NCBI RefSeq assembly: GCF_026151205.1
Contig: NC_087078.1
Span: forward strand, 124,001-188,000
Reading direction: 5' to 3'
Length of the DNA stretch: 64,000 nt
Source of the DNA: Bolinopsis microptera
Taxonomy: Eukaryota; Ctenophora; Tentaculata; Lobata; Bolinopsidae
In this document: in pieces, positions 2,610 to 63,998 of the stretch
Numbering within the stretch: position 1 is the first letter of the stretch
Layout of the letters: each line of letters starts with the position of its first letter
Translations under genes and position numbers: made by a program
The notes under the pieces: generated by a model
What the model was told of the DNA's origin: nothing
The model's input: the letters and a program-made list of their open reading frames with translations, nothing else
Database searches by the model: none

Positions 2610-5600
2610 AGATACAACGCTGGTTTCGAAGAGTTAGAAAAGACCCTGAAAAAGCAGATAAGAGATCTAGAGGTAAAACATGAAACCTCTCAAGATATCA
2701 TCAAGACACAGGAGTTCACCGCAAGTTCTACCTCCGACCAAGTAAGCTATAAATCTCTCAAACTTTCTCTTTAAATAGCGGTATTTGCCTGTAACTGGGA
2801 ATTTAGGATAATATTTTGGCATATTTATAATTTGATTAGGTTGGCTGTCTACGGTAGTACGGTTTATTTAAATTATCGGATCACGACAGATTGGACGTGG
2901 CAGCTAGTTTACTTGCAGCAACTGTAAATACTAGAACTATCGTAAATCGGCAGATTCAATACTATCCAGGATATTTGGTGGACGATGTCATATTTATATT
3001 TAAAACCAGACATACCACCACAACCCGACTGATACTGCCAAGCTAACCAGTAAACAGTAAACACCCTGTCAGATTGCGGAGCTACAATCTCAGCTTGAGC
3101 TTACTATAGAGGACCGGAACACCACACGTGAAGAGCTTGAGTCTGTCATGCTGCAGGTAGGCTTATAGTGTCACGTGACAGCATTTCTACCGTAAATTGA
3201 CATGTCCCTTGCTGAGTTTCTGAGTTGCTGAGTATAGGAGGATAAGTAGTTTGACTAGGTAATTTAATCATAAACTGGCTACCAGAACTATCAGTCGGTG
3301 ATATACTGATCAGTATCTTACTTTATCCTAATCCTCGGCTCAAATGTTACCATGGTTACTATGCACTATCCAGTAAAACTATGTCCCCACTGTAGCACTA
3401 TCTAGTAAAACTATTACCACTGTAGCACTGTCTAGTAAAAGTAATACCAGTGTCCCCACTGTAGCACTGTCTCGGAAAGCTTGCCTTGTTACTATGGTTA
3501 CATAGTAACCATGGTAACGGAAAGCTTGCGAGCTTTAGTGACAATAACTCTAATAATTCCGTTGCATTTGCAATTTGAAATATAGTGCTATAAGAAGCTG
3601 TTCAATGAAATAACCTCTTAAAGCCGTCAACAACAAAGCATAGTCAACGTGTTTCGGTTGAGAATTCCACCAACTACATGTCAAATGCTCGCCATATGCT
3701 TGTCAAAATCTTGGTAGTTAAAGTTGACGCCATCGAATATTGATTTGAGACAAATCATAGCAATAATTATTTTGACTGCTTAAAAATATAATCACCCGAA
3801 AATCAAAAGTACAGCTCTCTCCGTTAGACTGAGTGGTGAGTGGGCGGCCAAATGGTTGTCATAATAACGAAAAGGAGCGGGTACAGGGTGCGTAAAAAAC
3901 TATACACTTTCATTTTTAAATCCGGAGGAAAAACTATATTATGAAGTTGGCACGAATCCTTTTGTATGGTATCAGTTATATGCCTTGAGATAGCTTTTAA
4001 TAGTGGTGTTATTTACTCTTCAATTTATTATTGTACTATATGACAAACTCCAGGGAAGCCATGTTTTAACTACCATCTAGTTGCCATATTACCACTGCTA
4101 GTTACCAGGTAACACTGCTAGTTTACCATGGTAACACTACTAGTTACCATGGTAACACTGCTAGTTACCATGGTAACACTGCTAGTTACCATAGTAAAAC
4201 TGCTAGTTACCATGGTAACACTACTAGTTACCATGGTAACACTGCTAGTTACCATGGTAACACTACTAGTTACCATGGTAACACTGCTAGTTACCATGGT
4301 AACACTGCTAGTTACCATAGTAAAACTGCTAGTTACCATAGTAACACACATTAATCAGGTTGAGAAGCTCACCACGGAGCTGGAGAGCACAGTGGAGAAG
4401 CTGGAGACGACCCAGGACCTGCTCGAGCAAGCCCAGAGTGACACGGAGGCCTGGACTGTTCGGGTCCAGATACTCTCACTCGAACTCGGAGGTTAGTTCT
4501 GTGTAGTTCTGTGTAGTTCTGTGTAGTTCTGTGTGGTTCTGTGTGGTTCTGTGTAGTTCTGTGTGGTTCTGTTTAGTTCAGTGTAGTTCTGTGTAGTTCT
4601 GTGTGGTTCTGTGTAGTTCTGTGTAGTTCTGTGTGGTTCTGTGTAGTTCTGTGTAGTTCTGTGTAGTTCTGTGTAGTTCTGTGTGGTTATGTGTAGTTCT
4701 GTGTAGTTCTGTGTGGTTCTGTGTGGTTCTGTGTAGTTCTGTGTAGTTCTGTGTGGTTCTGTGTAGTTCTGTGTAGTTCTGTGTAGTTCTGTTTAGTTCT
4801 GTGTAGTTCTGTGTAGTTCTGTGTGGTTCTGTGTGGTTCTGTGTAGTTCTGTGTGGTTCTGTTTAGTTCAGTGTAGTTCTGTGTAGTTCTGTTTAGTTCT
4901 GTGTAGTTCTGTGTGGTTCTGTGTAGTTCTGTGTGGTTCTGTGTAGTTCTGTGTAGTTCTGTGTAGTTCTGTGTAGTTCTGTGTAGTTCTGTGTAGTGCT
5001 GTGTAGTTATGTGTAGTTCTGTGTGGTTCTGTTTAGTTCTGTGTAGTTCTGTGTGGTTCTGTGTAGTTCTGTGTGGTTCTGTGTAGTTCTGTGTGGTTCT
5101 GTGTGGTTCTGTGTAGTTCTGTGTGGTTCTGTTTAGTTCTGTGTAGTTCTGTGTAGTTCTGTGTAGTTCTGTGTAGTTCTGTGTAGTTCTGTGTAGTTCT
5201 GTGTAGTTCTGTGTAGTTCTGTGTAGTTCTGTGTGGTTCTGTGTAGTTCTGTGTAGTTCTGTGTAGTTCTGTGTAGTGAGGTACAGTCAAACCTCTGTAT
5301 AGCGACATACCGTGTTCCTCGATATACCTTCCTTCCTCTCATAACTGTAGTTAATTAATGTTTTGCAGTAAATTTGATTTATCATAGCTTATATCGCATT
5401 TGAGGGCCGGTTTATAGAGGTTAGACTGTATTACAAATTGAAATGAGTTACCTTAGTTCGTGTATTTATGGCGGGTAATATTGTGGGCTTGTGGCGGGTA
5501 AAATAATGGCGGGTAAAAATAATGGCGGGTAAAAATAATGGCGGGTAAAAATATGGCGGATTTTCCGAAAACCCACAAAATTTAACCCACCACTAATTTA

Positions 5601-8600
5601 CCTGCAAAATTATTTTCAGAAAAAAATTTTAAAATCCACTGCCATATTGCAAAATTGTACCCAATTTTCCTTCCAGACTCTGTTTTTGTTTGCAGTTTCA
5701 AAGTAAATATCATCTAAAACTAAAAGTATTGTAGTATAATATCTCTGTTGATATGAATAGGTACTAGGTAGTAAGTTTGAATAGTATCATAGCATGATAT
5801 AGATCAGTTTAACAGTACTTGTTCGTCTATTACAACCAAAGTATTTGAATAAAACCACTTCGCTACGGTCGGACTACCTAGAAAGTGAGTTTATGACGCT
5901 TGTTTCAATGTAAAAAGGAACGATAAAATTATTATGCTATATACCCTGTCAGAACTCCAAAAGTCGACTCGGTGGGTTTATTATAGCGGTTAAAATAATG
6001 ACGGAATTTCCGAAAAACTGCCACATTTAACCCGCCATAAATAAACGAACTAAGGTATATAATAAGTTATAATTTTATGCGCCGAAACTCCATTTATTTG
6101 GACAGGATTGCTAATGAAATTTTGGTTGTTCAATCATGAATACTCACTTTTCATTGGCTACGGTGCTTTACTCTGTATAAACTATTAAACCAAGAGAACT
6201 TGTCAGTAAATTTCCTCAAACTGATAACAGCTACACAATACACATGAACTCCTGCTATAAATTACAAATATTATTACAATACTCAAAAGAAATGCTTCAG
6301 TACAGACGCCGGAATGAAAGGGAGCTAATCTTTCTAATGTGATTACTCATCCTGCATAATTATACATAATTATCACGGGTCAAGTTATTATGGAGTCTGC
6401 ATTAATCATGAACTATTCTTGGGTTGGACCAGTAAAGGGTCATTCTGTCCATAAATATTTGAATACTAACTAACACTGCCCACATCGCGAAATTAAGATC
6501 TTTAAAAAAAAGAGAAGAGACTCCCGTTGTAGATGTGCCAGAATGATATCGATGATATTGATAACGTATATATTGAGCCTGAAAGCGTAAGCGACGATGA
6601 AAAGACCATCAGATAGAAAAGAAATGGTAATATCATCAAAAAACAAAGTTCATATTCATCTCAGCACTGAATAAGCTTCTATTGGGTCTCTCGATATCAT
6701 GGGAATAACCAAGATCATCACAGCACGAACGTTTACCCCCTTTAGTTTTATTTTTTCATTTAGACTCCTCAAAAGTCGTACAACAGGATTATTTAAAATA
6801 TTATAATTCAATTTTAAAGATGACAGGAATAAAAATAGCCGTATTGAGGTTTTTAAGAAATTTGTACGAAATACGCGCCAGCATGCAGCGCTGTCATACG
6901 AAATTCTGTTCAATACCCCCAAAATTGCCATATTTATATTTATATATAATATATTTATACATTTGTATTTATATATTTAGGCACCTAAAAACGCGAGTGA
7001 CCGATTACGTCTCGGTTTCATTTTGCGTTTGGGTAAGGGTAGCTGTTTGAAAAAAGGAAACAATAGTGACGCGGAAAGAAAAGTTTCAGGTTGTTCCAAT
7101 TTAAGGCTCAACATTTTATCGTGGGCTTGTCGAGATCCACGAGCATGTCTTTTGAGTCCCCTTAAAAATCGCTCATCATATTAGATTCTTCTCTTTATAA
7201 TTATGATTGCTTTGAATGCAGCGGGCGATGGATTGAAAGTCAAAGACGGATTGATCTGATTGTAAAATCAAGAAATAGTCCGGAAACTTTGGAACGTGAG
7301 GCAACTCCCGTCCAGAATGTGCTCCCGCCCAGAATGTGCTCGGGAACGAAATTAATTTGCTTAATTGCACAATGTCACGTTTCTAACCCATCTCTAATAA
7401 AAATAAGCAAATATCGAGTGGATGTGGGGGGAGGGGGAAATTTAAGAATCATTTAGAGAGAGATAACAAAATTGTGGTATAAAACAAGAGATGAAGTCAA
7501 GATTTTCGATAAAATGTCATGATTTTTCTGCTGTGATGTTTTTAAATATTCTCATTACACGATAGATATTAAAAGAGATAAAACTACGCTAACTCCTCCC
7601 TTGCCAGGCCAGGGGGCCTCTGGGCCAGCACGTGTTATAGACTAACCACTGGGTTAAACCTAAAAACAATCTAATCAATAATGTCTAATGGATTGGTAAA
7701 GGACGTGTTCAAAATGTCTTCCTTAGTTAACTGAGCATGGCTGATAAACTGAATCTGTATTACTCACTATTTTATAAGTCATAATATAATATGTGCCTAG
7801 AGAGGGCAGTTAACTAATACTGCAATAACAAACAGTTTTACCGTTACTTTCCACAGAAGCGAACAGTGGGATAACAGATCTGCAAGAAGAACTGGTAACC
7901 AAGTCACGTGATGTTGATGTTATCAGAGAGTGCCTGGTCGATCTTCGTGCACAGGTAACTACTGCATTATATACGTACTTACAAGGAAATAAGAAATATT
8001 TGAGGAATAAGAGTTTTAACAGAAACTCCACAGTGTCACATTCTCTCCAAATTAATTACTCCTCTATTTTAATTACTCACTAATTATTAATTACTCTTCT
8101 ATTTTAATTACTTACTAATTATTAATTACTCCTCTATTTTAGACAGAAGAAGATGGGGAGCTAGACTTCGCCTCTCACTTCAAGGACATGATAGATGTGA
8201 GCACTGTAAAGAGTGAAAACGGGCGGCTCCTTGAGACGAACAGGGACTTGGCTGAGGAATTCGAAAAGGTAAATTAATAAAGTGGTGCTCCTTCAACAGT
8301 GGTGCTTAATTTAAATGGTACAAAATTTAATATTTTAATACTACAAATTACAATTTCATTGACCTACAAGAGTTAAAAGTTGATGGTTACCATGGTTATG
8401 GCGATTGCGTTTATTTCTCTGGATTACTCCTTATAAGTCGCGGCTGGTATTTACTGGCTGGGGGCCTTTGACCGGATTGTTTTTAAAACTGCTAGTGAGT
8501 AGTGAGCAGACATTGGGTTCAGTAGATTAATCTGCCAGACACCGTGCTGGATTACTGCTTCCAAATTTGAGTTCTTTTAAAAAATTTTTTAAATCTAATT

Positions 8601-29350: not shown

Positions 29351-32300
29351 GGTGGTTAAGGGGTTTTCCAAAACTCCAGGGGCTCGTGAAGTGTCTTACA
29401 CAACCTCTCCGAGCCCAAGATCCGTAGTGCGTGGTGAAGAGCCACACCCTTCTCGAGGTGCCACTGTTAAGCTTAGTAGCCTGTTCTGGGTGATTCCAGT
29501 TAAAACAGGTGAACGGTAACAGAACACTGCGGCTCTAGACCAGTACAGGTCGAAAAATAAAACCGGGACATCTGTCTCGTTAGGACTGCATGCGGTTCAT
29601 CGGGTGCGAAGGGCCAGCATCCCTTCCACCTCAAATAACAACGCTACTGAAACAACACACACATCAAATGGACGGAGTGCTACTTCCAATTCAAGGACGG
29701 ATGGTTCCAGCATGACGGAGGCTGGGCAAAGCCTACGGGACCCCAGTCGCCTGATGAGAAGAGGGGGTACTCGTCATCCGACCAGATTTATTAGTCAACA
29801 GATCATCCATGTTGACCCTGCTTCCAACAAATCCAATCCAGTAAATTATTGCAAACAGTTTTTACGTTTTGGAACATGGAACGTTCTATCTCTTGTCAGC
29901 TCATCTACACAGCTCTACCAACTTAGTCAAAACATTGATCAGTACAGATTGGATCTTTTGGGGATCACCGAGACTCACATGCCTGGATCTGGCACCACTC
30001 TACTGGACAATGGCAGTCTACTCATCCATTCCGGTAGAGTCGACGGGATCAAGAGACAGGGAGTCGGTCTCAGTCTTTCAAAACGAATCAGAAACTCCCT
30101 GATATCGTTCACTCCCACATCGGAGCGGGTTTTAACCGCTAGGCTGCATAGTAAGCAAATCAACATCTCTGTTGTTGTGGCCTATGCTCCAACTGAGGGT
30201 GCAGAGGAGAGTGAGAAAGATAAGTTTTATAGGACACTCACAGATACATTTGATGGGCTACCTCGTCACGATATCAAGTTACTGCTCGGCGATTTTAATG
30301 CAAAAGTAACATCAGACAGATATGGAAGTGAAGCGGTCATCGGTGGGGAATCACTCCATAGCTCATCAAATGACAACGGGACAAGACTTGTGGATTTCTG
30401 TGCGACGAACCAGCTTGTCATCGGGGGAACTCTCTTCGAGCACAAGAACATTCACAAGGGAACATGGCGGTCCCCCAACGGGCTCACCGTCAATCAGATA
30501 GATCATATCTGCATTGGAAAGCGGTTTCGTCAATCACTTTTTGATGTTAGGGTATGTCGCGGGGCAGACATCGGCTCCGATCATTATCTGGTTCTAGGAC
30601 TGCTGAAAATCAAACTTCAGTCAGTGACAAAGATCGACGCCAACAGGCCCAATGTGCCTGCCATTGAGCGCCTGAGGGATAGTACTACGGTTACAGAGTA
30701 CAATGTGGCTCTTCAAAACCGATTTGCAAGTCTGGATAGTGAGGTCGACCTCGAAGATATGTGGCGTAATCTCAGTCAGACCGTCACTGAGGTCTCACTG
30801 GAGGTACTAGGCAAAAGACCCCGGAAGGCAAAGGAGCAACACCTGTCACGGAAAACCAAGGATTTATTGATTCAGCGGGCACAGTTTAAGCGCAAAGACC
30901 CAAACTCGGACGCTAACAGGTCAGAATATTCTAAACTTAATAAGTTAGTCAAGAAAAGCAGCAAGCTAGACGACAATAACTGGGCAGTTAGAGTAGCTAC
31001 TGATCTTGAGGAAGCAGCGAGCAAAGGTCAGCAGCGTGAGGTATGGGCAAAGATCAAGAAGATCTCTGGTAAGAACAAGAAGCCTCAAGCATCTTGTGTC
31101 CGGGACAAGGACGGTAGGAAGATCACGGATCCCCAACAGCAGAGGGATAGGTGGAAGGAGCACTTTACTGAACTTCTGAACCCTCCATTATCAAGTGTCG
31201 ACCTTGCCGACCTTGATACAGTACCACCCCAACCCCACTTTGACTCTCTCTCTTGTTCGGATGGACCACCCACCAGAGACGAGATTAGTTATTCCCTGAC
31301 AAAGCTTAAGAACAACAAAAGCCCAGGAGTGGACGGGATAACTAACGAGCAACTGAAGTATGGTGCGAGTGCTCTAGTTGATCAACTAGAGTGTCTATTC
31401 AAGAAAGTGTGGGAAGAAGAGACTGTTCCTGAAGATTGGTTAAAGGGTGTAATCATTGTTATTGGGAAGAAAGGAGACACTTCAGTCTGCGGGAACAACA
31501 GAGGGATCACCTTAAGGTCTACAGCATCAAAGCTTTTTCAGATGATTCTTCTTAAGCGGTTACATGCTGGTATGGAGTGTCTTCTCAGGGAAAATCAGTG
31601 CGGATTTAGACAGAACCGCTCATGTATTGATCAGATTTATTCTCTCCGAACTATTATTCATAACTGTCTTGAGTTTAACATTCCTCTTTACATTAATTTT
31701 GTCGATTTCAAGGCAGCGTTCGATTCTATCAGAAGGGACTTTATTTGGTGCAGTATGAGACACTATGGGCTGCCTGAAAAATATGTCAGAATATTTCAGT
31801 CATTTTTTGGGGGTACCATGAGTGCCGTGAGGGTTAATGGGGAGCTAACAGACTGGTTTGATGTTAACTCAGGCACAGGTCAGGGTGACATTCAAGCACC
31901 TCCTGTCTTTAATTTCTGCCTAAACTTTTCTGCATTTCTGGCTGAGACCAACAAGATCATCAGTCAAGGCGCAGTGCTGCAGAAAGAGATGAAGACGGTC
32001 GAGGAAAAGGTCATTCTGGACACAGATTATGCTGATGACATGGCTATTATGGACAACTCAGGGGAAGGCCTACAGGAGTCAACTGATCTATTAGTTCATT
32101 ACAGCTCCTACGCTGGGCTCAGAATAAATGCAAAGAAGACCCAATGCATGGCTGTAAGCAAGTGCGCCTCCCAGCGACCTTTCATCAAGGATGATTGTAT
32201 TGAACTGTCGGTTGAGGGTGAACCCGTCGAGCAGGTTAGCAACTTTGTCTACCTGGGTGCAACTATCAGTGGGGATGGGACAATCAACAGAGACCTGGAT

Positions 32301-32889
32301 GTCCGTATCCAGAAGGCTAATGGCGCCTTTCATCAGCTCTGGAACATTTGGAATAGCAGAACTATAAAGACTCCAACCAAGATCAGGATCTATAGGGCTG
32401 CTGTCCTCACCATCTTATTGTATGGAGCTGAAGTCTGGAACACCACCAAAAAGCAGATGAAACGCTTTGAGGTTTTCCATCAAACCTCCTTGAGAAGGAT
32501 CCTTAGGATTAAATGGTTCTTTCATGTGACCAACGAAGAAGTTCTTAGGAGGGCTGGCATCAAGTCTGTTGAGACTTTCATCAGTGCTGCCAGGCTACGT
32601 TGGTATGGACATGTAGTTAGAATGCCAGACTCTAGACTACCGAGGTTTCTGTTGAACTGGAAGCCAAATTATGGAAAGAGGTCAAGGGGCAGACCCCGTA
32701 AGAACTGGAAGTCCTGCGTACTCGAAGATGCTGCTAAGTTTACAGGTGTTGAAAACATCGACAACAACACAACAGAAGCTTTGGCTACCAACCGAGTACA
32801 GTGGAGACATATGTTACGCCGCCAACGCGATGTGTGTGATGCAGGCCACTCCAACGACTAGGAGGAGACCTTACCATGTAACATGTATG
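29351..32889 (+). mobile_element. Full-length RTE-like non-LTR retrotransposon
   Basis: The element lies exactly between two copies of TATACAGCCAC (29340-29350 and 32890-32900). Satellite phase continues correctly after the second copy (GATACAGCCAC follows), so this is an 11-bp target-site duplication and the ends are precise. The 3.54-kb length, one long ORF, short 5' and 3' untranslated parts, and a short ATGTA-type tail instead of poly(A) fit the RTE group. Confidence 0.9.
29712..32861 (+). CDS. LINE endonuclease-reverse transcriptase (RTE-like)
   Basis: AP-endonuclease domain first (FGTWNVLSL, ITETH, GDFNAKV, QIDHICIG, GSDHYLVLG), carrying the Asn, Glu, Asp/Asn and Asp/His catalytic positions. 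The reverse transcriptase follows, with GVDGI, GFRQNRSCIDQI, FVDFKAAFDS, a QGDIQAP block in place of the usual QGxxLSP, and the catalytic YADD (near 32030). The C-terminus has RLRWYGHVVRMP and RGRPRKNW as in RTE-type elements. These proteins nick target DNA and copy element RNA at the nick. The frame is open from 29520 but has no ATG before 29712; an in-frame GTG at 29604 is another possible start. There are no internal stops, so the copy looks recent and perhaps active. Confidence 0.9.
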   Translation: MTEAGQSLRDPSRLMRRGGTRHPTRFISQQIIHVDPASNKSNPVNYCKQFLRFGTWNVLSLVSSSTQLYQLSQNIDQYRLDLLGITETHMPGSGTTLLDNGSLLIHSGRVDGIKRQGVGLSLSKRIRNSLISFTPTSERVLTARLHSKQINISVVVAYAPTEGAEESEKDKFYRTLTDTFDGLPRHDIKLLLGDFNAKVTSDRYGSEAVIGGESLHSSSNDNGTRLVDFCATNQLVIGGTLFEHKNIHKGTWRSPNGLTVNQIDHICIGKRFRQSLFDVRVCRGADIGSDHYLVLGLLKIKLQSVTKIDANRPNVPAIERLRDSTTVTEYNVALQNRFASLDSEVDLEDMWRNLSQTVTEVSLEVLGKRPRKAKEQHLSRKTKDLLIQRAQFKRKDPNSDANRSEYSKLNKLVKKSSKLDDNNWAVRVATDLEEAASKGQQREVWAKIKKISGKNKKPQASCVRDKDGRKITDPQQQRDRWKEHFTELLNPPLSSVDLADLDTVPPQPHFDSLSCSDGPPTRDEISYSLTKLKNNKSPGVDGITNEQLKYGASALVDQLECLFKKVWEEETVPEDWLKGVIIVIGKKGDTSVCGNNRGITLRSTASKLFQMILLKRLHAGMECLLRENQCGFRQNRSCIDQIYSLRTIIHNCLEFNIPLYINFVDFKAAFDSIRRDFIWCSMRHYGLPEKYVRIFQSFFGGTMSAVRVNGELTDWFDVNSGTGQGDIQAPPVFNFCLNFSAFLAETNKIISQGAVLQKEMKTVEEKVILDTDYADDMAIMDNSGEGLQESTDLLVHYSSYAGLRINAKKTQCMAVSKCASQRPFIKDDCIELSVEGEPVEQVSNFVYLGATISGDGTINRDLDVRIQKANGAFHQLWNIWNSRTIKTPTKIRIYRAAVLTILLYGAEVWNTTKKQMKRFEVFHQTSLRRILRIKWFFHVTNEEVLRRAGIKSVETFISAARLRWYGHVVRMPDSRLPRFLLNWKPNYGKRSRGRPRKNWKSCVLEDAAKFTGVENIDNNTTEALATNRVQWRHMLRRQRDVCDAGHSND

Positions 32890-50752: not shown

Positions 50753-51455
50753 ATGGCAGACCCACAAGGTAATAACGCTGCCCCTGTTGCAGCGGCAGCT
50801 GCCGACGCCGTAAACGCGCCAAGAATTCAACCGATGTTTATTCAAATCCATCCCACAATTCAAGAGTGGGATGGATTTGGATGTTTACCTACAACACTTT
50901 GCAGCGTACACCAGGGCGATCAACTGCCCTGCGCCTGAACACGCCGACCTGCTGATAAGTCTATTAGAAGACAAGGCGCTAGACGGAATTTCCAGAACCG
51001 TACACGGCGTACGAAGTGACCTGAACGACCTCATCGCTCAGCTGAGGCGCGCAGAAGGATTGGAACGCAACAGCGAACGATATGTGACGGAGTTACGGAA
51101 CCGAAGACGACTCAGGACAGAAGGAATCTGGAAGTACCACCTCGAACTCCACAAGCTAGCGAAAAAGGCGTACCCGCAAAATCTGGCGATGCGTAACGAT
51201 TCACTGAGAGAATCGTTCATCGCAAACATTAACAACCCAAACCTGGCGTCCCGACTACGAGAATTACAAGAACTCGAAATGGAACAATTGCTTGACGCCG
51301 CCATCACGCTCCAAAGCAGTCAAACGGCGTCAGCTAAAGCAGTCAACGCAGTGAGATCTGAGCCTTATTATCAGTCACCTTATTATCAGGAGCCTTATTA
51401 TCAGTCGCCTTATTATCAGGAGCCTTATTATCAGTCGCCTTATTATCAGTCATAA
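50753..51455 (+). pseudogene. Ty3/gypsy gag, frameshifted
   Basis: ATG at 50753 opens an Ala-rich start (MADPQGNNAAP). Near 50870 the reading moves to another frame, in which VYLQHFAAYTRAINC, LLEDKALDGI and a helical Glu/Arg/Leu-rich region resemble the retrotransposon Gag domain, which forms the particle. The C-terminus is a short tandem repeat of YYQSP/YYQEP (51361-51452), where a zinc knuckle would be expected; none is seen. It is followed directly by RNase H, so the protease and reverse transcriptase are missing. Confidence 0.6.
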
Positions 51456-51823
51456 GAGACGACTCACGCCACCCGGTAGCGTATGGTTCACAGTTGTTGA
51501 ACCCAGCTCAGAAGAACTACTCTGCGACTAAGAAAGAGCTATTTGCTATAGTCTTCTTTACACAAGCTTTTCGTTTCCACTTGCTTGGCCTTAAGCATTC
51601 CCGTTGTGAAACTGATTGTAGAGTCTTAGTTTGGATAACTTCGTTTCGCGATCCGCAAGGGATCACAGCCCGATGGCTAGAACAATTGGCAAGATTTAAC
51701 ATAGAGATCGCATATCGCCCAGGAAAGCAGAATCAAGCAGCTGACGCCTTGTCTCGAATACATCCAGACAGCAAACCCGACAACGACGCCAATTCGCTCC
51801 AAAATAACCTCATCATGGACTAA
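51456..51823 (+). pseudogene. Ty3/gypsy RNase H fragment
   Basis: HPVAYGSQLL precedes NPAQKNYSATKKELFAIVF, then FRFHLLG, a degenerate TDCRVLVW (usually TDHxxL), then DPQGITARWLEQLARFNIEI and RPGKQNQAADALSR. This is the RNase H region and the RPGK..ADALSR tether typical of Ty3/gypsy pol. The catalytic core to its left (protease, RT fingers and palm) is deleted. A stop at 51821 separates it from integrase. Confidence 0.85.
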
Positions 51824-51916
51824 GTTGACAACGATCACCCAGACATGAAAGTAAATGTCACGGAACAACAAGATGTCCTGACGCCGCCAGTTCTACCCTT
51901 CTCGACTTGAAACACG

Positions 51917-53553
51917 TTGAACACGCCGGACTTTGACGAACGACTTGAAACAGAACGAATGAAAGATCCGGATCTCAAACGGCTGTTCCACCTAGTCTTT
52001 CTGAAGTCACCGATATTTCCAGATCGAGAGCCGCCTATCACCCTTTTCTACTACCATAAGAGAGTCTCGCTGTCGAGAATGCCAGGACGAAATGCTATGT
52101 TGTACAGAGGAAAAGGTGACCAGAAATGTATTTTGGTACCGCGGCATAAGCAGACTGAAGTCCTTAAATCTACTCACTCTGGACCCACGGGAGGACACCG
52201 TTCCGCCGCCAAAATGATGTCCGTGCTAAAGTCAACTTTCTACTGGAAATCAATGAGATACGACGCCGAATTGTACGCCAAAAACTGCGCCAGCTGTGGT
52301 GTGATGAAAAAGCCGCCAAGAAAACCTAACGCCCCTATCACAATGACTGCAACAAGCCCTCGACTTCAAAAGTTATCTATCGACATCGTTGGAAAACTAC
52401 CACGCACGAAAAATAGTAACGTATTCATTCTAACCGTACTTGATGTTTCAACAAATTCGCGTGGGCATTTCCACTAGCTAAAATAACATCTGAATCTATC
52501 GCAAATCAGCTAATTAAGCACATACTTAGTATTTTTGGCTTACCCTTACAAATTCAGAGTGACGCCGGAAGCCAACTGATATCGCAGATGATGCAAGAAC
52601 TGTACGCCATATTGGGCATCAATCAGAAACAGTCGTTGCCTTGGCAACCACGGTGCAACGGCATTGTGGGAAGACTGCATCGAACCATTGAAGGATCGAC
52701 GGCACACTGGGCAGAAAAGAAACCACGTTCTTGGGATAAGATCTTATTCTTACCGCTATGCATCTTATCGTACAACGCCCAAGTCGCAAACTCGACCGGA
52801 ATCGCCCCGTTCAAACTCATGTTTGGGCACAACGCCCGCTTACCTGTTCACTTCATCTTTGGAGAGCCCCCCTTGGCTGAGAATGTACCCGAGTTCGAGT
52901 ACAATGTGTGGCTGGAAGAAACGTTTTACCACTACCAGTTGGAGCACCAAGCTCGGAAGAAATTACAGGCGTCCATGCAGAGTATCAAGGACTACGCCGA
53001 CAGGAAGCAATTCGGAAAGCCCTTGCAACCTGGAACATTTGTGTGGCTCATGGAAGGAGCTTTTGAACGAGGATGCAGAAAATTCTCCCGTAAATTCTCG
53101 GGACCGTACAAGGTGCACGAGAAGCAAAGTAATACTACGTATGTATTAAAACAGACCAAACATCCCTTCAAGACTTTCAGAGCACACTTCAATCGATTAA
53201 AACGATGTCATCTGCCGGCCGCCACGCTCGCCGCCTTAAACGACACTATTGAACGAGAGTTCGAAAAAATACGAGAAGAAGACGCAATCACTAACAATGA
53301 TCACGATGCTAGGACGAGTAGCAGTCGACCTCCCGAAGACGACGAGATAGTGATCATCATGAATCCTAACGCCGCCGCGGCAGCTGTTGCGCCGACAATA
53401 CCTAACCACGACCTCATAACGCCTCCAGTACGAAATGCTCCAACTTCCGCACCGCCCGACATGAGACGATCAGCTAGAATCGCACAACAACCGCGTGTCC
53501 GGTATAATGTGAACTGTGTCAGAGCAAGGAAACTCAGACTATCGCTCTGGTAA
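51917..53553 (+). pseudogene. Ty3/gypsy integrase, frameshifted
   Basis: The first frame (51917-52477) has the HHCC zinc-binding region (THSGPTGGH, then CASC) and the first catalytic Asp (LSIDIVGKLP). A one-base shift near 52456 moves it to the second frame, which has the SDAGSQ block with the second Asp, then PWQPRCNGIVGRLHRTIE. The catalytic Glu expected in NGxVER is Gly here. Downstream are the IN C-terminal SH3-like region (FSGPYKV, FRAHFNRLK) and a Pro/Ala/Asp-rich end. With a frameshift and a lost active-site residue the enzyme is dead. Confidence 0.85.
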
Positions 53554-54953: not shown

Positions 54954-55427
54954 CTAGGAGAGGGATCTGCAGTCGTCCTCTTCCAGTTGAAGATCTGCGA
55001 GGGATGAAGGTGCTCTGGGTCTAGGGTTTCCGTATCGGCGGGCTCTCTGTGCCCTCTTCTTCACCGCTTGTTCGTTGGGGAGGCGGGCACGTGCATCCTG
55101 AGACATGGGACCAGTAACGGAGCAAACGATGTTGTGGTTAGTAGTCATCGTCGTAGCAGCCAGATCCTGGACTTTAGCGAGGACTTCTTTCAATTCACAG
55201 TCAGCGATATCAGCGTCGTGGTTATGTATCTGTGTCACTTTCACCAAGGATTCGTTCAGGGTATACAGACGACCACGGCAACAGTCTTTCTTCCTCACAC
55301 ATCTCCAGGCTTGGCGTCCATCGGTGGTAAGCTTTCCATCCTTAGAGTAGCGGAAACCACCGTGTAGGAGATTCTGACTGGTAGGAGTCCTTCCTCTGAT
55401 AATCTTTACTGTATCTTCATCGTACAT
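54954..55427 (-). CDS. FLYWCH-type zinc finger protein
   Basis: 157 residues. Residues 25-70 form a FLYWCH-like finger: FRYSKDGK, W41-R-C43, C49/C50, then H68-N-H70, with the WRC and HNH signature. Residues 114-133 (ARLPNEQAVKKRAQRARR) resemble the linker that follows FLYWCH fingers in MULE-associated proteins. FLYWCH domains bind DNA or proteins. The gene reads leftward into the left arm of the mobile element. Right after its stop, one base out of frame, the arm encodes a tail nearly identical to that of the divergent gene at 55824, so splicing or a shift may join them. Confidence 0.7.
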   Translation of the reverse strand: MYDEDTVKIIRGRTPTSQNLLHGGFRYSKDGKLTTDGRQAWRCVRKKDCCRGRLYTLNESLVKVTQIHNHDADIADCELKEVLAKVQDLAATTMTTNHNIVCSVTGPMSQDARARLPNEQAVKKRAQRARRYGNPRPRAPSSLADLQLEEDDCRSLS

Positions 55428-55528
55428 GGTTGTTATTGTAGTAGTTGAGATGTAGCTGGAACTAAATAATAAGATACTTCTATTCCCAACATCGGTCTTA
55501 AATATACTAGTTGTCTCTCGAGTCGTCT

Positions 55529-56591: not shown

Positions 56592-58413
56592 CACGTTCGG
56601 CTAGCCACATCTCCTTGATGGTAAATACAGGTGATAAACCCCCGACTGCGCCGACACCCCCGATACTGGAGGAGAAATACAGACTGGAAACGTTGCCACT
56701 TCGGGGCACCATACCTACAAGGGTACAGACCCATCTATCCCGACGTTCCAACCACCGCCGCTGCACCAGGGACCGCATTACCAGCGCTTAACGAGACGAG
56801 TATCTAAGCATATATGTCACTGCTTGTTCGAGATTGAACATAGTATACTACGCAGCACGATTTTAACACTTGATCTTAAAGCACTAATTTTTATACAAAT
56901 AACGTCGTAATGGCGTAACGACCCCACTATTGGGCTAAATATATTATCTTTTAAATCTAATCTCGCGGTTGTTGCCAGAGTATCCCTGCAATACTGATTA
57001 TTCGGTGCCATGGTGAGCTGTGTTAATGACCGCGATATTGCTCGGTAAGCATGCTCGACCTCTTCAGGACCTACGCCATGTTATACGAATCCATGTAGTA
57101 GTGTAGGTCCCTGGTCCTCAGAACCAATATCTTCTTTCGGGTTACTAACCTGAATCCTTTTCAGTATCACAAGCCGCTGGGACGCAACGGTGACTATCAC
57201 GGGTGATAAACGACACAACGCAGCCCCCTCGACCGCGTCAGTATAACATTACTGATTGGAGACGCAATTACGACCTTCGCAACGACAGACTCCTACCACC
57301 CTATGGAGCAACCCAGACTGATGTTGTACCTGTTACAACTTCCCGTCATAGACTCGAATGAACTCGATCACGGACAATATATTATAATGTTGTGAGAATA
57401 TAGACGATAGCGTAAATTAAATAGTCACGTGCTGGGCACGATCGAAATTACTATTCATTGAAAGTTTGAAGATACGTAGCGAGGCGCAGTTAAATTATTT
57501 TAAACAGCTCCCGAGATGATGGGGTTCAAGATAATAAATGTACGTAGAATATACGTGTACGTTATGTTTTTGACGAGGAACGCCGCCTCATGATGGTTTT
57601 TGCACGTGTACCGTGTTTTTAATGCAACGTTGGTCAGTACCACGTGAAACGATGTAGTTACACCAGAGGCAGATGTCGCCTTCTTTAGAAAAATTACGCA
57701 AATGTATTAACCGAAGGTTTTGTTTTGTTTTAAAGACCCGAGGGCCACCCTTAAGGGCTTTGAAACCGGTTTATTGACAATATAATATATAATAAATAAA
57801 CTGAAATCGTAACATTCATGTCAATACTAACTGAAATAATATAAGCTGTAGTTAAAATAATAATACTTACTGTCACTTAATTAAGATATATGATGTAATA
57901 AAATGAATCTCTTTATTTCCACACTAATTCTCACACCAAGCTTTAATTCACACACCAAAACTTTAAATTTTATCAGAATACAAATGTCCTAATATATACG
58001 TCTCTTATCTTTTAGTTAAAAAGTCAGGGGTGCAGCCGTTTAACTTCAATTAAGATTAAAACAATTCATCACGCTGGATCACGACGTTATTCTATCAAAA
58101 TCAGCTAGGCGTTATTTGAATTGATTGCTGGGCTCTGTGTGGTACTGTGTAGTGGTAAGTGGGTGTGTGTGCGCGTGGTTGTTATTATGATGCGTTGAGA
58201 TCAGCTACGTTGATGATATGTGATTGTGCGTGTTGTGCTGATAAGGCTTGAATTGAGCAATGGCCAGGAGTATTATCAGTAAACTAGTAGCAGGTCTGGC
58301 AGTGAAAATTTTCCGATTTCAAAAGTGGTCGGTAATTATTAGTTTTGAAGTGCTTTTGTAACTAAGAAGTTTATTGAGTGAATGCCTCATGTTGTTTAGA
58401 TAGTTTACTAATA
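56592..58413. other. Retroelement end and LINE 3' region, no gene
   Basis: No LTR could be paired with sequence upstream of gag. From about 57800 the sequence is probably the 3' untranslated part of the minus-strand LINE; AATAAA occurs on the minus strand near 57915. A frame at 56470-56778 (-) has no recognisable domain. Confidence 0.4.
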
Positions 58414-61400
58414 CTAAGTTATGTTGTGGGGTGTGTGATTTTGTGACCGTTGAGATTTCCTTAAACCTGGAATATTATTCAGTAAAAAGGTTTGCCAGCT
58501 TTCCTCGTTGTTGCCTCTTGATTGGTGTTCCAATAGCACACGTTTTGCATTAGACTTGTAAATGTTGATTGAAAATAAGCTGGGAAGACAAGTTATATTT
58601 AAGTTTGTTTCAGTGATGGCAAGCAGTGGACCTTTAAAAAATACTGATTGTCTAAAAGTGTTACTACCGTATGTAAGAAGCCAGTCAGAGCTAGTCTCAT
58701 GGCTGGAGTTAACTGTCGGGATATTACTTGGAAAAAGGCCTTTGATTGATTTTGGCACTGTTTCAGGGAAGTATTTCATCCTGTGCATTAATATAAGTGC
58801 ATTCTTCACGATAATTCCATGAATAGTGAGAATTCCATACTCTTTAAAGCTATCCCTCGTGTGTGCAGGCAATTGGCCGTCCTTGTAGAAATAGTTGACG
58901 TAACCTAGCATAACCATTCTCACACCTTGTTTCTGTTTTGTGAATAGTGACTCAATGTGTGATTTGGCTGCGAAACCCCAGACAAGGGAGCAGAAATTGA
59001 GGTGGGATTGAACAAAGCTGTGATAAATTTGAAGCCTGACTTTTAACGGTAAGTGCCGTTTAATTTTGTACATGATACCCATGTATCTATTCATCCTGGC
59101 CCTAACGGCATGTATGTGTTTGCTCCACGTTAATTTATCATCGATTATTACTCCGAGGAAACGTGCCTCAGTCACTTGATCTATCACTACTCCAGCTATG
59201 GAAACATTAATGTTAGAAAGGGTTGTCGTTCTATGATTGCTAAATACCATAAAGTGAGTTTTTTTGAGATTGAGAGCAAGTCCGTTGCTATCAACCCATT
59301 TGATCAGGAGCGAGGTTATTTGATTTAGTTTGAACTGAACCTCTTGCTCGGTGTAACCAGTAACTATGATATTCGCATCGTCTGCGTACAGTATAAACTT
59401 AGCTAAATTTGTGATGTTTGGAAGGTCGTTGATATAGATCACAAAGAGTAATGGTCCCAAAATCGACCCCTGGGGTACTCCAAACTGGATTTCTCTGGGC
59501 CTCGAGTCTTCTCCACCGACAGTCACGAATTGGTGGCGGCCGCTCAGATAGGACTCGAACCATTTAAGTGCTGAACCTTTAATGCCGTAATGTTCCAGTT
59601 TTTTTAGTAGTATAGGATGTTCAATGACGTCAAAAGCTTTAGAGTAGTCAAGAAGAAGCAGCACAGCAATTTGCTTACTGTTGAGAGAGTGTAGAATACT
59701 ATTTTGAGCATTAAGTAAAGCGTGTTCACATGACATGCCAGGCCTAAAACCGTACTGACTTTCAAAAAGTGATCCATTGAAGTCTAAAAATTCAAGAACT
59801 CGACTATGCATAAGTTTTTCGTATATTTTCGAGAAAGAGCTTAGCAAAGAGATTGGTCTGTAATTAGTAACTTCTGTTTTAGAGCCACCTTTGTGTATCG
59901 GAACAACTCGTGCCGATTTTAGAGCATTTGGAAATATTCCCTCAGTAAAGGAAGAATTTATGATTACGGCCAACGTTTTTGTGAATTTCGTATCTAAGCT
60001 TGCAAGCTTCATTGGTTCAATTTTTGTGTCGAGTGTCGCTTTGTTCTTGAATTTTTTTACTACTTTACTGATTTCAGAGGGCGTAACAGGTCTTAACTCA
60101 ATACTGCTAGTACCTATATCCGTCCTACGTCCGTCCTGTAAGAATTCTTCAAAACCTCCTGGATCGAAAGTTTGCCTAGCACTTATCTGGGACTTTATGT
60201 TGCTTGCAATGTTGGAAAAATACTCATTAAATTTAGCCGATACATCGGAATGGCTGCTGAGTATGTTTCCACATTCATCCTTTATTTTAATAGGCCCAGA
60301 GTGCCTGACATTTCTACCCAGGAGACTATTAATAAGTTGCCACTGCTTTTTGGAGTTGTCGCGGTACTCCTCAAAAAAGTTTTTGTAGTACTTGGTTTTG
60401 GCCAAATTTATATGTTTGTTACAAAATTTATTAATTTTTTTGTACGCAGCAATATTTGTCACGCTGGGAACTTTTATCTTATCGTGGTAGAGACGCTGTC
60501 TACGGGCACATGCATCTTCTAGCCACGGTAAGATCCAGGGTTTTGAGTCGTGCCGTTCATTTTTACGTCTAGGTCCAGGTTTCTTTTCAGGATATGCTTG
60601 ATCGTAATGTTTGGAATAGATTTCACTGAATTTGTCATACTGGTCATTCGCATTAGTTTCTCTGTGCACCTCACTCCACGTTTCGCTCTCAATAATTCTT
60701 TTGAAATCAGCATGTGCAGCCGCATTGAACCTGCGGAAGTTCGGCACCTTCTCACGACCCTCACTCGATATAACACGCCTCCCTGCACTCCTGCCCAGTG
60801 AGAGTGTCGTCAGTGTTGCTAAGTGGTCCGACACATTGACCGTCAGTACATGACAACTCAAGGTATTTAATAGGTCGTTGGTATAGACGTGGTCAATTAA
60901 GGTTGCGCTATGATCAGTTACACGAGTGGGCCTTGACACCAGTTGTACAAATCCGTATTTTTCATAAACTGCGATAAGATTTTTCCCTGCTACATCTTTT
61001 TCGTGTTTTACTAAATCAACATTATAGTCACCGGTAAAAACGATGTGTTTGCGAGAGTGCCTATCAAGACTTCGAAGTAGGTTATCTAGAATTTCGGTAA
61101 ATTTGTCAATACTCCTGGAAGGAGAGCGATAAACATTAACTAACAGTTTAGTTTTGTTGAAGCCTTTGCAGTTGTGAATCTTTACAAATTGGAACTCACC
61201 GTTCAAGTCACCATCCCCCTCAAAATTTGGCCTAAAAGATTCAATTTGTTCCGGATTACAGACCCGTTTGTTAATATATATCGTTAAACCCCCTCCCCTG
61301 CCTGTTTTCCTTACAGGGTCTTGCTGGATAGGCTCGTAGAAATTTTCCAAAATAAGGTCAGTAATCCCGTTCGGTAATTTATTCAGAGTACAGTTGGTTT

Positions 61401-62223
61401 CATTAAAACTTAAGATATCGAAATTGCTATATGTGTCGATCTCTTCCCGGAAGTAGCTGATATTATTATGTAGTGATCTCACATTTAGGGAAAAAATCTT
61501 GAGCTCGTTGCGATTCGCAGATTTTACGTGCGTCGGCTGCTTATATTCACAGCGTTGTAAGAATTGAGATAGCTCGTTCCAATAATCAGAGCAACCCTCG
61601 TGATCATCTAGCTTATCTCCTATATCATTTATTAAACAATCTCTGTGGTACGGATTAAATGAGATTTTGTCCGACTCTGTGCAGTAGTTCTCGTTCAAAT
61701 CGATGCAGTTTATATTGAAACCTGCAATATTCTCCTCGCAACACTTCACACATCCTAACACACCTCTGTAGCATTTCACGTGAACTTTCCTGTCGCACCA
61801 ATCACATTCTCTCACATTATTTATAGAATAAGACCATCCTAAACAAGCGTAACACTGTGCCTTAAATTTAACTTTCGCCTGCTGAGAGCCACTATCGTTT
61901 ACAGTTTCATCAATATTCGATTGTAGATCGTTACTAGTATTACTGTTTTTACAGCTTTTGCATGACCAGGTAGGATTCGCTTTCAGTGCTTTAGCTTCAG
62001 ACTTAGATAACGATTCGCATTTATGATGTTTAGTTGCTTTACATGTTGCACAAAAGAGTAATGGATGATTCTTTGTTAAACGTGTTTTACAAGTGCCACA
62101 TTGTTTAGAATTGGTCGGTGGATCTACTTGATTAGTTATACTGATAATATTTAATATATAAAACTTGTAATATAGTTTCGCTATAGAACTAGGAAAACGT
62201 AACCTGTCAGAACTGTTCAGCAA
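58414..62223 (-). CDS. LINE ORF2: two Zn fingers, endonuclease, RT
   Basis: 1,269 residues without stops. Order: a PHD-like finger (CGTCKTRLTK, CATCKATKHHKC, CKSC; about residues 42-92), a second Cys-rich finger (CYACLGW, CDWCDRKVHVKC, CVKC; about 123-160), then an AP-endonuclease (LNVRSLHNN, NETN, GRGGGLTIYI, GDYNVDL, VSDHLA) with the expected Asn/Glu/Asp/His residues. The reverse transcriptase has VVPIHKGG, NYRPISLLSSFSKIYEKLM, LLLLDYSKAFD, GVPQGSILGPLLF and catalytic YADD, and ends in a HLNFCSLVWG-type thumb. This layout is that of the Jockey/CR1 group. The intact frame suggests a young copy. The true start may be further inside the frame. Confidence 0.92.
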   Translation of the reverse strand: MLNSSDRLRFPSSIAKLYYKFYILNIISITNQVDPPTNSKQCGTCKTRLTKNHPLLFCATCKATKHHKCESLSKSEAKALKANPTWSCKSCKNSNTSNDLQSNIDETVNDSGSQQAKVKFKAQCYACLGWSYSINNVRECDWCDRKVHVKCYRGVLGCVKCCEENIAGFNINCIDLNENYCTESDKISFNPYHRDCLINDIGDKLDDHEGCSDYWNELSQFLQRCEYKQPTHVKSANRNELKIFSLNVRSLHNNISYFREEIDTYSNFDILSFNETNCTLNKLPNGITDLILENFYEPIQQDPVRKTGRGGGLTIYINKRVCNPEQIESFRPNFEGDGDLNGEFQFVKIHNCKGFNKTKLLVNVYRSPSRSIDKFTEILDNLLRSLDRHSRKHIVFTGDYNVDLVKHEKDVAGKNLIAVYEKYGFVQLVSRPTRVTDHSATLIDHVYTNDLLNTLSCHVLTVNVSDHLATLTTLSLGRSAGRRVISSEGREKVPNFRRFNAAAHADFKRIIESETWSEVHRETNANDQYDKFSEIYSKHYDQAYPEKKPGPRRKNERHDSKPWILPWLEDACARRQRLYHDKIKVPSVTNIAAYKKINKFCNKHINLAKTKYYKNFFEEYRDNSKKQWQLINSLLGRNVRHSGPIKIKDECGNILSSHSDVSAKFNEYFSNIASNIKSQISARQTFDPGGFEEFLQDGRRTDIGTSSIELRPVTPSEISKVVKKFKNKATLDTKIEPMKLASLDTKFTKTLAVIINSSFTEGIFPNALKSARVVPIHKGGSKTEVTNYRPISLLSSFSKIYEKLMHSRVLEFLDFNGSLFESQYGFRPGMSCEHALLNAQNSILHSLNSKQIAVLLLLDYSKAFDVIEHPILLKKLEHYGIKGSALKWFESYLSGRHQFVTVGGEDSRPREIQFGVPQGSILGPLLFVIYINDLPNITNLAKFILYADDANIIVTGYTEQEVQFKLNQITSLLIKWVDSNGLALNLKKTHFMVFSNHRTTTLSNINVSIAGVVIDQVTEARFLGVIIDDKLTWSKHIHAVRARMNRYMGIMYKIKRHLPLKVRLQIYHSFVQSHLNFCSLVWGFAAKSHIESLFTKQKQGVRMVMLGYVNYFYKDGQLPAHTRDSFKEYGILTIHGIIVKNALILMHRMKYFPETVPKSIKGLFPSNIPTVNSSHETSSDWLLTYGSNTFRQSVFFKGPLLAITETNLNITCLPSLFSINIYKSNAKRVLLEHQSRGNNEESWQTFLLNNIPGLRKSQRSQNHTPHNIT

Positions 62224-63065
62224 GGACTATTCAGCCCTGAGTGTGAATCAGCTCGTGACTTTCCGACTAAACTAAGAGTAACCTGTACAGATTTACCTGT
62301 ACAGAGTACAAATCAAAACCTGCCTGCCTGTTTATTATACCTGCCTGTTTAAAATGAAATTAAAAAAATACAAGATCTGTGTGAGAGTGTATACAAATTG
62401 TAGTGCTGTATCTGTGTGACCTCATTCCTGAAAAAATTTTTGTGTCACGTATGTCATCGTAAGATTGTACGTCGTATATATGTTCTATTATGTTATAAAT
62501 GTCTGTCATGCTGACATAATAATTATAGTGATGAATATTTTGGGTTATTGATATGAAAGATCGTGACCGTTTAAGTGTGATTGTATTGTTATTATCAGCC
62601 TTGATTTAGTGAGATAGTGATGGTTGATTTCAGAAATAGTTGACTGAGTAAATGTAAAGGTTAATAGGCCGATTTGAATATTAGACTAGAATAAATTGTA
62701 AATATGAGATTACAGGATGAGATTAGATAGTGTTTGAAAGAGCCAATCAGATCATTTCTAGCCTCGGTGCTGAGCTGTGAGCAGCTGATTTTGAAAAAAA
62801 TAAAGTCATGGGATCGCTAAGACATGAAAATATAGCAAATAATTGATGATAGCCACTAGCCAGTTTGAAATTATAGTGCGATTATTTAATTGTAATCCTC
62901 TTTTCATTGTACGATAGGCTGCACCCTCTGATGCAGGTATTTGTCGATACGTTTATTCACAGCAGATTTGTTGACATTTTGGGTAATTTAATAGACTTCT
63001 TTTAACATAACTTAAACTTAACTTTATCAGTCAGCTCAACTTCATGGCTTAAACACAAAACTAGT
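62224..63065 (-). other. Spacer between LINE ORF1 and ORF2
   Basis: About 840 bp without a gene; the direct repeat TTACCTGTACAG occurs near 62293. The spacer is longer than is usual between LINE ORFs, so an internal promoter or a separate insertion is possible. Confidence 0.4.
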
Positions 63066-63998
63066 TCACCTATAAGTGGACCGAGAAAATCGTTCTACTA
63101 TGTTAGCATAAAGGACGCGTAAGGGTAGCGGCCCTTTACGCAGCCCCAGAGTCAAGAGGATACAGTGAACCCAGCTTCTGGTTAGCACTGATTTACCTAG
63201 CTTGTTGAAGTGAATGCCGTCGCGTGCCAGGTGCGGTAGGCCGAATAGAACATTATCAAAGAGTTTGAAATTTCTACTGCGTAAGGAGAGTTGGAGCATC
63301 AGTTCGTTCGTCAGATCTATTGTCCGGTTCATTTTGTTGAAACGATCTGCATTTATGGACAATGGGCTGATGGAGTCAAATAAAAACTGGACGTTCAAGT
63401 GTCTGTACTTGTCAATGAAAAGTTTAACGTGGTTGTGGAGAGTCTGGGGATATGCACCGTTTTTCCTCAGGTCGTTTATCCCTGCTGAGATTAGGACTAC
63501 GTTAGCCTGCCGAATGGACTCATCGTGTTGGTCGAGATCGCGCAGCAGAAAGAGATCATTTCTGAAAGCTACGGCAGGCTCTTGCAGTTCACTGCAATCA
63601 AAAGAAGCGTTTTTGGAATCAGAGAGGATCAGTACGCGTTTAGGCCCTGGCTGTCTGGTGGTGGAGGGATGAGAGACAGGGCTCTGCTTAGGACGGGATG
63701 ATGGACTGATCAAAGTTCTGCAAGTAATGCTGATCCGGGTGCCTGTGCACTGCTCTTGATGGACCCGCGGTACACTGTGATCGAAGAGGTTCTGGCTAGA
63801 CCGAGTCATGGAGTACAAAGACCCGTGCTCGGGGGTAATGGAAAATCGCTCGTACTTTCCTGGCAGCTTCCTCCTGAAAACAACTGGGCGTGCAGCTCCG
63901 AGAGTGATGGTCAGGATGGAACTATCGGGGTCAAGCGACGGCTCGTTGTCGCTGTGGGGAGGAATGTGAGCTGTGTGTGAGTCGTATTTAGTCACCAA
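63066..63998 (-). CDS. LINE ORF1: AlkB-like dioxygenase fused to SGNH hydrolase
   Basis: Runs off the window's right edge, so the N-terminus is missing. Residues 1-96 match the AlkB core: H15-S-D17-N-E, ILTITLGAARPVVFRRK, GSLYSM, FDH74SVPR and R88-ISITC-R94, that is, the HxD...H iron ligands and the two arginines that hold 2-oxoglutarate. After a Pro/Ser linker, residues 120-290 have an SGNH-hydrolase layout: VLILSDSKN (block I), ISAGIND (173-176, block III GxND) and DGIH (260-263, block V DxxH). SGNH esterase domains occur in ORF1 of some CR1-type LINEs. AlkB enzymes remove methyl lesions from DNA or RNA bases. Same strand as ORF2, 840 bp upstream of it. Confidence 0.8.
   Translation of the reverse strand: MVTKYDSHTAHIPPHSDNEPSLDPDSSILTITLGAARPVVFRRKLPGKYERFSITPEHGSLYSMTRSSQNLFDHSVPRVHQEQCTGTRISITCRTLISPSSRPKQSPVSHPSTTRQPGPKRVLILSDSKNASFDCSELQEPAVAFRNDLFLLRDLDQHDESIRQANVVLISAGINDLRKNGAYPQTLHNHVKLFIDKYRHLNVQFLFDSISPLSINADRFNKMNRTIDLTNELMLQLSLRSRNFKLFDNVLFGLPHLARDGIHFNKLGKSVLTRSWVHCILLTLGLRKGPLPLRVLYANIVERFSRSTYR

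Follow-up and report, generated by a model that had tools for sequence, protein, structure and literature searches.

Does a ctenophore retrotransposon encode its own nucleic-acid demethylase? The question arises at one end of a 64,000-nt stretch of the Bolinopsis microptera genome (contig NC_087078.1, forward-strand positions 124,001 to 188,000; the whole stretch analysed is called the window below), where a sequence-only reading had proposed an AlkB-type dioxygenase fused to an SGNH hydrolase within the ORF1 of a LINE.

AlkB and SGNH domains share one ORF1 frame

The minus-strand ORF1 frame is closed by a stop codon at 63066-63068 and is open up to the window edge (Table 1). Both signatures named by that reading, the AlkB residues HxD, H, R, R and the GxND/DxxH blocks of the SGNH domain, could be placed within this one intact frame. 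Of the window's 272 ORFs with a length of 60 aa and above, one contains the spaced AlkB motif; because 43 of 20000 shuffles of the ORF1 frame contain it as well, the motif by itself is weak, and the evidence is therefore the profile match. The Pfam profile PF13532 aligned to residues 2-94 of the window frame over profile positions 100-194, with E=1.1e-12; its score of 49.1 bits exceeds the cut-off of 31.2 and places the proposed AlkB domain above threshold. For the hydrolase, the Pfam check failed in the window itself, GDSL_2 reaching 23.8 bits over residues 155-268 (cut-off 32.9), and succeeded by profile: sub-threshold alone, the SGNH part is significant once a profile is built from its relatives (Table 1). 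Two relatives of the window ORF1 exceed the GDSL_2 cut-off on their own (33.4 vs 32.9 bits). The region ahead of the two domains gave weak matches to coiled-coil chains at best (E 0.098 and worse), and the domain order of ORF1 is a putative coiled coil, AlkB, SGNH. An AlphaFold2 model of the window's 310 residues, computed without an alignment, had a mean pLDDT of 38.9 and was not used.

Table 1. Features of the AlkB-bearing element (window positions, 5' to 3' on the forward strand) and of the reference copy of family F2 (positions within locus L043).
Feature	Position	Strand	Remark
ORF1, C-terminal 310 codons (AlkB + SGNH)	63069..63998	-	478 codons in all with the sequence outside the window
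AlkB / 2OG-Fe(II) dioxygenase domain	63717..63995	-	PF13532; C-terminal half of the profile inside the window
AlkB catalytic residues H, D, H, R, R	63954-63956, 63948-63950, 63777-63779, 63735-63737, 63717-63719	-	
SGNH/GDSL hydrolase domain	63195..63641	-	GDSL_2 sub-threshold; motif places; profile of 26 relatives against PDB 2hsj, E=4.6e-11
SGNH blocks SDSK, GIND, DGIH	63612-63623, 63471-63482, 63210-63221	-	
ORF2, PHD + endonuclease + reverse transcriptase	58414..62226	-	1270 codons stop to stop; downstream of ORF1
PHD finger of ORF2	61951..62100	-	PF00628, 21.9 bits, just under the cut-off of 24
AP-type endonuclease of ORF2	60814..61491	-	PF03372 43.3 bits, PF14529 37.3 bits, both above cut-off
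Reverse transcriptase of ORF2	59143..59892	-	PF00078 (RVT_1), 132.1 bits
3' UTR and common 3' end	57717..58413	-	short (AAAAC)n tail at 57717-57731; 3' end common to 3/3 aligned copies
L043 (F2), ORF1	1275-2987		F1-like AlkB-SGNH ORF1
L043 (F2), ORF2	3355-6984		distant-lineage ORF2

The window element belongs to a family of near-identical copies

As proposed, the AlkB-SGNH frame lies upstream of a LINE ORF2 on the same strand, and this ORF2 contains a PHD finger, an endonuclease and a reverse transcriptase. Extending the contig toward the full ORF1 gave a frame of 478 codons in a 5'-truncated copy, as compared with 608-610 codons in its siblings: blastn homology to full-length siblings begins at C7:188496, 496 bp outside the window. 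Siblings on C12 and C1, ~99% identical to the window copy over 6.5 kb, align to each other from 464 bp upstream of the point at which the window copy starts. These two full-length copies share a common 5' end and a 610-codon ORF1 whose first Met is codon 29, and from the copy alignments the full element is calculated to be ~7.2 kb long. The 3' end with its short AAAAC-type tail is common to the window copy and both siblings. With a 394-base probe of this 3' end, at least 40 matches were obtained in the genome (40 of 163 candidates scored), every one of which stops between query bases 387 and 394; identity is 98-100% in 11 of them, the window among these. Inspection by eye revealed no target-site duplications at the window copy or at either of the full-length copies.

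Five loci of the window's family, F1, have an ORF1 at 98-100% identity (the window on C7, then C1, C12, C37 and C2, the last with an internal gap); a sixth, an 87% fragment on C6 with 79 residues and two stops, was omitted. The F1 3' end lies downstream at 5/5 loci; 4954-4960 bp separate the end of ORF1 from the 3'-end block in 4/5, as compared with 8.6 kb in C37, so that further copies with this ORF1, the same ORF2 and the same spacing, for which the sequence-only reading had called, do exist. The ORF2 of F1 lacks a Met throughout the first 721 codons (sibling, L041:3862-7620) or 738 codons (window copy), and that of family F4 up to codon 107 (L044:1073-4780), while in families F3 and F5 a Met immediately precedes the PHD finger. 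The late or missing Met in F1 and F4 implies a non-AUG start, splicing or another route of ORF2 expression. We read the window element as a recently active non-LTR retrotransposon whose SGNH-type ORF1 has a catalytically intact-looking AlkB domain built in. Its anatomy suggests the CR1/L2-type clade with an esterase ORF1.

AlkB-bearing ORF1s are numerous and diverse in the genome

A genome search with ORF1 (89 of 835 candidates scored) returned families at about 59%, 50%, 48% and 30% identity. Within each of F1-F5 (4, 6, 3, 4 and 13 copies, respectively), the best aligned stretches of the ORF1s have 98.3-100% identity, and the five families therefore look young. The SGNH residues S428, G473, N475, D476, D560 and H563 are invariant across all five.

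PF13532 itself had at least 151 matches in the genome (150 of 587 candidates scored), mostly within open frames several hundred codons long. Of 20 further AlkB places that were read, 19 have an open frame containing the motif exactly; the twentieth, L056, which the motif filter dropped, has a T-to-N change yet retains H, D, H, R and R. Since these places were picked by score and frame length, intact copies are over-represented and decayed ones under-sampled. Architectures, assigned partly by eye, include that of the window (N-terminal stretch, AlkB, SGNH), which recurs in the G2 type (L007, L052, L061) and in L065; PHD-AlkB-SGNH, found in L047, L059, L060, L064 and L066; and AlkB followed by a long linker and SGNH-like motifs, found in L049, L051, L054 and L057, which run off the stretch examined.

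An alignment of 26 ORF1s has a mean column identity of 27% and comprises about a dozen diverged groups plus near-copies. The AlkB signature H, D, H, R, S, T, R is invariant in 26/26, with S in place of N in RxNxTxR, and the SGNH serine is nearly invariant; the invariance of the AlkB residues is partly by construction, as the rows from the further places entered through the motif filter (L056 being dropped) and were thus located with the motif itself. At E<=0.01, the whole ORF1s matched PF13532 in 21/26 cases, GDSL_2 in 18/26 and PHD in 5/26. The five lacking a PF13532 match include L041 (F1) and L043 (F2), and since the AlkB slices of these two full-length ORF1s score 59.4 and 61.2 bits, above the cut-off, we attribute the misses to filtering; the other three are presumably F1 or F2 rows too.

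A comparison of dN/dS over the AlkB part among copies had been suggested as a check. Between the five families, Nei-Gojobori dN ranges over 0.27-0.56 in the AlkB domain and over 0.26-0.41 in the SGNH domain, with dS beyond computation in every AlkB and SGNH pair, which we read as saturation; for the N-terminal part of ORF1, where dS is computable, dN/dS is 0.28-0.57. Within families the changes are too few to judge, the window copy and L041 giving 0.10 for AlkB, 0.30 for SGNH and 0.96 for the N-terminal part. Among five copies of a Helitron described below, AlkB dN/dS is 0.13-0.28 in 10/10 pairs. These estimates, together with the intact ligands, argue that AlkB is under purifying selection in both LINE ORF1 and Helitron.

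Many SGNH frames, with GDSL_2 matches in frames of about 478, 485 and 521 aa, also occur in the genome with no AlkB match among the candidates scored, and AlkB-bearing and AlkB-free SGNH ORF1s may therefore coexist.

A probable exchange of ORF1 among LINE lineages

The two ORFs differ in how they relate the families. The ORF2s of F1 and F4 are 56% identical and that of F2 is only 26-27% identical to either, whereas for ORF1 it is F1 and F2 that share 56%, as compared with 44% for F1 and F4. The F2 ORF2 had no Pfam match to PHD, and F3 and F5 have ORF2 starts that are PHD-bearing and F1/F4-like. The F2 arrangement is not peculiar to one copy: downstream of ORF1, the reference copy L043 is collinear with 5/5 other loci, over 1.49 kb in three and 1.3 and 0.7 kb in two (L017, L043's own locus, was left out of this count). 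An ORF1 tree joins F1 with F2 (98/97), and the test does not reject, at the 0.05 level, a tree in which F2 branches outside the other four (p=0.081), for which reason the case for exchange rests mainly on the identities. F2 is thus probably an ORF1/ORF2 chimera, in which an AlkB-SGNH ORF1 has moved onto a distant ORF2. Exchange of ORF1 types has already been proposed for LINEs (PMC3905857).

Among solved structures, the best matches of the AlkB domain are ALKBH3 and ALKBH2

Against solved structures, a profile of the 26 ORF1s matched ALKBH3 best (PDB 8jnr and 2iuw, E=2.2e-30), followed by ALKBH2 (3rzh, about 1e-23) and, more weakly, ALKBH8 (1.7e-10) and E. coli AlkB (5e-7). Neither ALKBH5 nor FTO nor the esterase of the zebrafish LINE ZfL2-1 (4c1b) was among the best 60 of its 68 structure matches. 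The best solved match of the SGNH part, 2hsj, is annotated as "putative platelet activating factor". Directly after HxD, families F1-F4 have Asn (HSDNE) where ALKBH3 has Asp (HSDDE); F5 and the Helitron have Asp. Frames resembling host ALKBH2 (L001) and ALKBH3 (L002) are also present in the genome. Of two glutamate-receptor frames compared, one has its best match in ML032222a, a Mnemiopsis protein (E=1.2e-61), which outranks longer receptors, and the other in kainate receptors.

ALKBH3 and ALKBH2 are host repair enzymes of the m1A/m3C type and are not known to have an SGNH domain. Apart from these enzymes, the AlkB domains of the LINEs, the PHD type and the Helitron form a group of their own (99/98) in a tree of 24 rows, whose finer joins are unsafe because the branches are long. 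The AlkB domains of the three AlkB-linker ORF1s in the tree fall outside this main transposon group, with host genes and L003, and possibly represent a second acquisition. The branch that sets all transposon AlkBs apart on one side has a support of only 86/73, and a group of LINEs without the Helitrons is not rejected (p=0.117); we therefore claim neither a single capture nor a transfer from LINE to Helitron.

For the SGNH domains, hhalign comparison of profiles connected the PHD type with the window group (95.2% probability), with the G2 type (96.8%) and with the Helitron (94.1%). The direct comparisons among the latter three gave low probabilities (window group vs G2 type 1.9%, G2 type vs Helitron 5.0%), with no match between window group and Helitron (1.0%). 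Searches for relatives elsewhere confirmed none in viral contigs (three queries) or prokaryote genomes (one query).

L003 has an ALKBH3-like frame (1063-1950) and behind it, with the strand unchanged, an SGNH-like frame of its own (2662-3438); this may be a gene pair or another mobile element.

A Helitron carries the same two domains in reverse order

The Helitron frame has 2459 codons at locus L045 (203-7579) and at least 3173 at locus L046 (383-9901); in both, an SGNH domain is followed by a Pro/Ala-rich stretch, AlkB, repeats, Helitron_like_N and PIF1; the order of SGNH and AlkB is thus reversed relative to LINE ORF1. In L046, Helitron_like_N (79.5 bits) and PIF1 (78 bits) reside in one protein. 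The genome has 41 Rep matches (51/51 candidates scored), seven of them with an AlkB match close by: at six of the seven, AlkB is in a frame of identical length, and at C12:816078 it lies ~4 kb upstream in another open frame. At the other 34, AlkB was not among the matches listed (150 of 587 AlkB candidates scored).

The presence of the pair in two unrelated element classes suggests that removing methyl groups may help elements to spread. As the Helitron has the same two domains, any such benefit would not be specific to reverse transcription; and as it has no retrotransposed RNA, one explanation for both classes must rest on single-strandedness.

What the AlkB domain may do for its element

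AlkB and SGNH stand in one frame, with conserved catalytic residues, under purifying selection and in many young copies, and the pair has its parallel in a Helitron. The joint explanation that accounts for this best, and to which we give moderate confidence, is that of an active LINE whose ORF1 AlkB would remove m1A/m3C-type methyl groups from the element's own single-stranded nucleic acid. Methyl groups of this type on single strands, a state that LINE RNA and the Helitron intermediate have in common, are favoured because the AlkB is ALKBH3-like; the substrate itself is a guess from the nearest relatives, at low identity. ORF1p would multimerise on the element RNA, and its AlkB domain, like ALKBH3, would oxidatively strip such methyl groups in cis, leaving translation and target-primed reverse transcription unblocked. 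The SGNH domain might tie the particle to membranes or hydrolyse esters, as proposed for ZfL2-1, and in the Helitron the same activity could act on the single-stranded DNA intermediate. Human ABH3 (hABH3) is reported to reactivate methylated RNA phage MS2 (PMC544882), and the ORF1p of ZfL2-1 to form dimers via a coiled coil, to cleave esters and to bind lipids (PMC3905857). As a counterpoint, ZfL2-1 can do without its SGNH-type ORF1 in HeLa cells, the esterase shows no binding to oligo(A), and structured RNA-binding domains are missing from ORF1ps of this kind (PMC3905857).

A broader and more tentative proposal, which we hold at less than even confidence, is that AlkB and SGNH make up a portable counter-modification cassette of ctenophore mobile elements, exchanged among distant LINE lineages and order-reversed in the Helitron, because methyl groups on single strands, whether from damage or from host defence, would be a general barrier to transposition.

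Alternatively, the AlkB domain might serve epigenetic escape by removing a silencing host mark, be it m6A on element RNA or 6mA or m3C on element DNA. Such a role has been proposed for the ALKBH5-like protein of orchid Ty3/Gypsy elements, which does demethylate m6A in vitro (PMC9289625). In the present genome, seven matches to MT-A70, the m6A-writer domain, are present at four places, and given the Helitron parallel the mark might sit on DNA or on the transcript of any element. Against it, the domain is nearest to ALKBH3 and ALKBH2, with neither ALKBH5 nor FTO among the best 60 of 68 structure matches, and we consider this explanation rather unlikely. Among the marks that the sequence-only reading had put forward for such an escape (m1A, m3C, m6A), m6A has lost ground for the same reason and retains some plausibility from the MT-A70 matches.

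Some AlkB-family enzymes have protein substrates, and the dioxygenase could act in trans on a host protein or a host RNA and not on the element's nucleic acid. The PHD fingers in 5/26 ORF1s and the sub-threshold one in ORF2 hint at chromatin contacts, which would suit this view; the nearest solved relatives are nucleic-acid demethylases, however, and LINE ORF1 proteins are presumed to package element RNA (PMC3905857), making a trans-acting role improbable. Still less probable, and by a wide measure, is a passenger or purely structural domain that was captured by chance and kept for its fold: the capture of host sequence is a known habit of Helitrons (PMC6431247), but the iron and 2OG ligands are kept in 26/26 aligned ORF1s as well as in the filter-dropped L056, and both the AlkB dN between families, with dS beyond computation, and the low dN/dS of the Helitron AlkB speak against it. 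That the AlkB-SGNH frame is a host gene which a LINE happens to adjoin, a notion to which the host-like ALKBH2 and ALKBH3 genes might lend some colour, is ruled out for practical purposes by the collinearity of copies, namely the equal distance to a common 3' end in 4/5 F1 copies, the common 5' end of the two full-length ones and the F2 copies that continue collinearly from ORF1 at 5/5 loci over 0.7-1.5 kb relative to the reference copy.

Returning to an ORF1 AlkB that would demethylate the element's own nucleic acid, the domain, if active, would be an RNA or single-stranded DNA demethylase encoded by an animal LINE, inside a protein presumed to package the element RNA. The same enzyme pair in LINE and Helitron would then point to an obstacle shared by two unrelated transposition routes, perhaps nucleic-acid methylation. 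Whether transposition is limited by methyl marks or lesions that transposon RNA or DNA carries becomes a testable question, and the approximately dozen diverged AlkB groups form a natural set for comparing substrate choice.

Relation to known systems

We know of no SGNH partner for the AlkB domains of plant RNA viruses. These domains nevertheless resemble the present case in that an RNA replicator carries an AlkB of the kind that repairs nucleic acid (PMC544882), although, unlike LINEs, the viruses concerned have no DNA copy. The closest parallel among LINEs is the group with an SGNH-esterase ORF1p, such as zebrafish ZfL2-1, in which SGNH likewise lies in ORF1 (there behind a coiled coil, here behind a putative one) and endonuclease and reverse transcriptase in ORF2; they differ in that here AlkB stands ahead of SGNH, and the term 'alkb' is absent from the main text of that paper (PMC3905857). 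A retrotransposon with an AlkB-family domain is known from orchids, where the ORF2 of a Ty3/Gypsy element (Ogre/Tat) encodes an ALKBH5-like protein that demethylates in vitro (PMC9289625). That is a plant LTR element of m6A type, with no mention of SGNH in the accessible text, whereas the domains described here are ALKBH3/2-like and sit in an animal LINE ORF1 and a Helitron. Helitrons and Helentrons with the accessory domains RPA, OTU and AP endonuclease similarly join Rep-PIF1 and extras in one giant frame; unlike the Helitron found here, none is mentioned with an AlkB or SGNH domain in the accessible text of the paper, which names GDSL esterases for giant Penelope-like retroelements (PMC6431247). 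Likewise, the accessible parts of a fungal Helitron paper mention no AlkB, SGNH or GDSL (PMC4289320), and those of a krill genome paper only a host alkB2 (PMC11294593). Among the papers listed in literature searches, judged by title and the start of the abstract, we found no AlkB in a LINE or Helitron; surveys of nucleic-acid-modifying enzymes may mention AlkB in transposons. With AlkB already known from plant RNA viruses and the orchid Gypsy element, its occurrence in LINE ORF1 and in a Helitron thus appears new within that literature.

Other elements in and outside the window

The window holds further sequences related to mobile elements. A second LINE of another type, with endonuclease, reverse transcriptase and DUF6451, lies on the plus strand at 29520-32858, and a Gypsy-like element in pieces, with weak matches to an integrase core and a p58-type C-terminus, on the same strand at 50814-53550. 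A FLYWCH zinc-finger frame on the minus strand (54957-55526) is possibly of MULE-type transposon origin. Outside the window, an 824-codon minus-strand frame at L010:6596-9070 has weak matches to a NERD nuclease-related domain and a UvrD/NPHP3-type ATPase.
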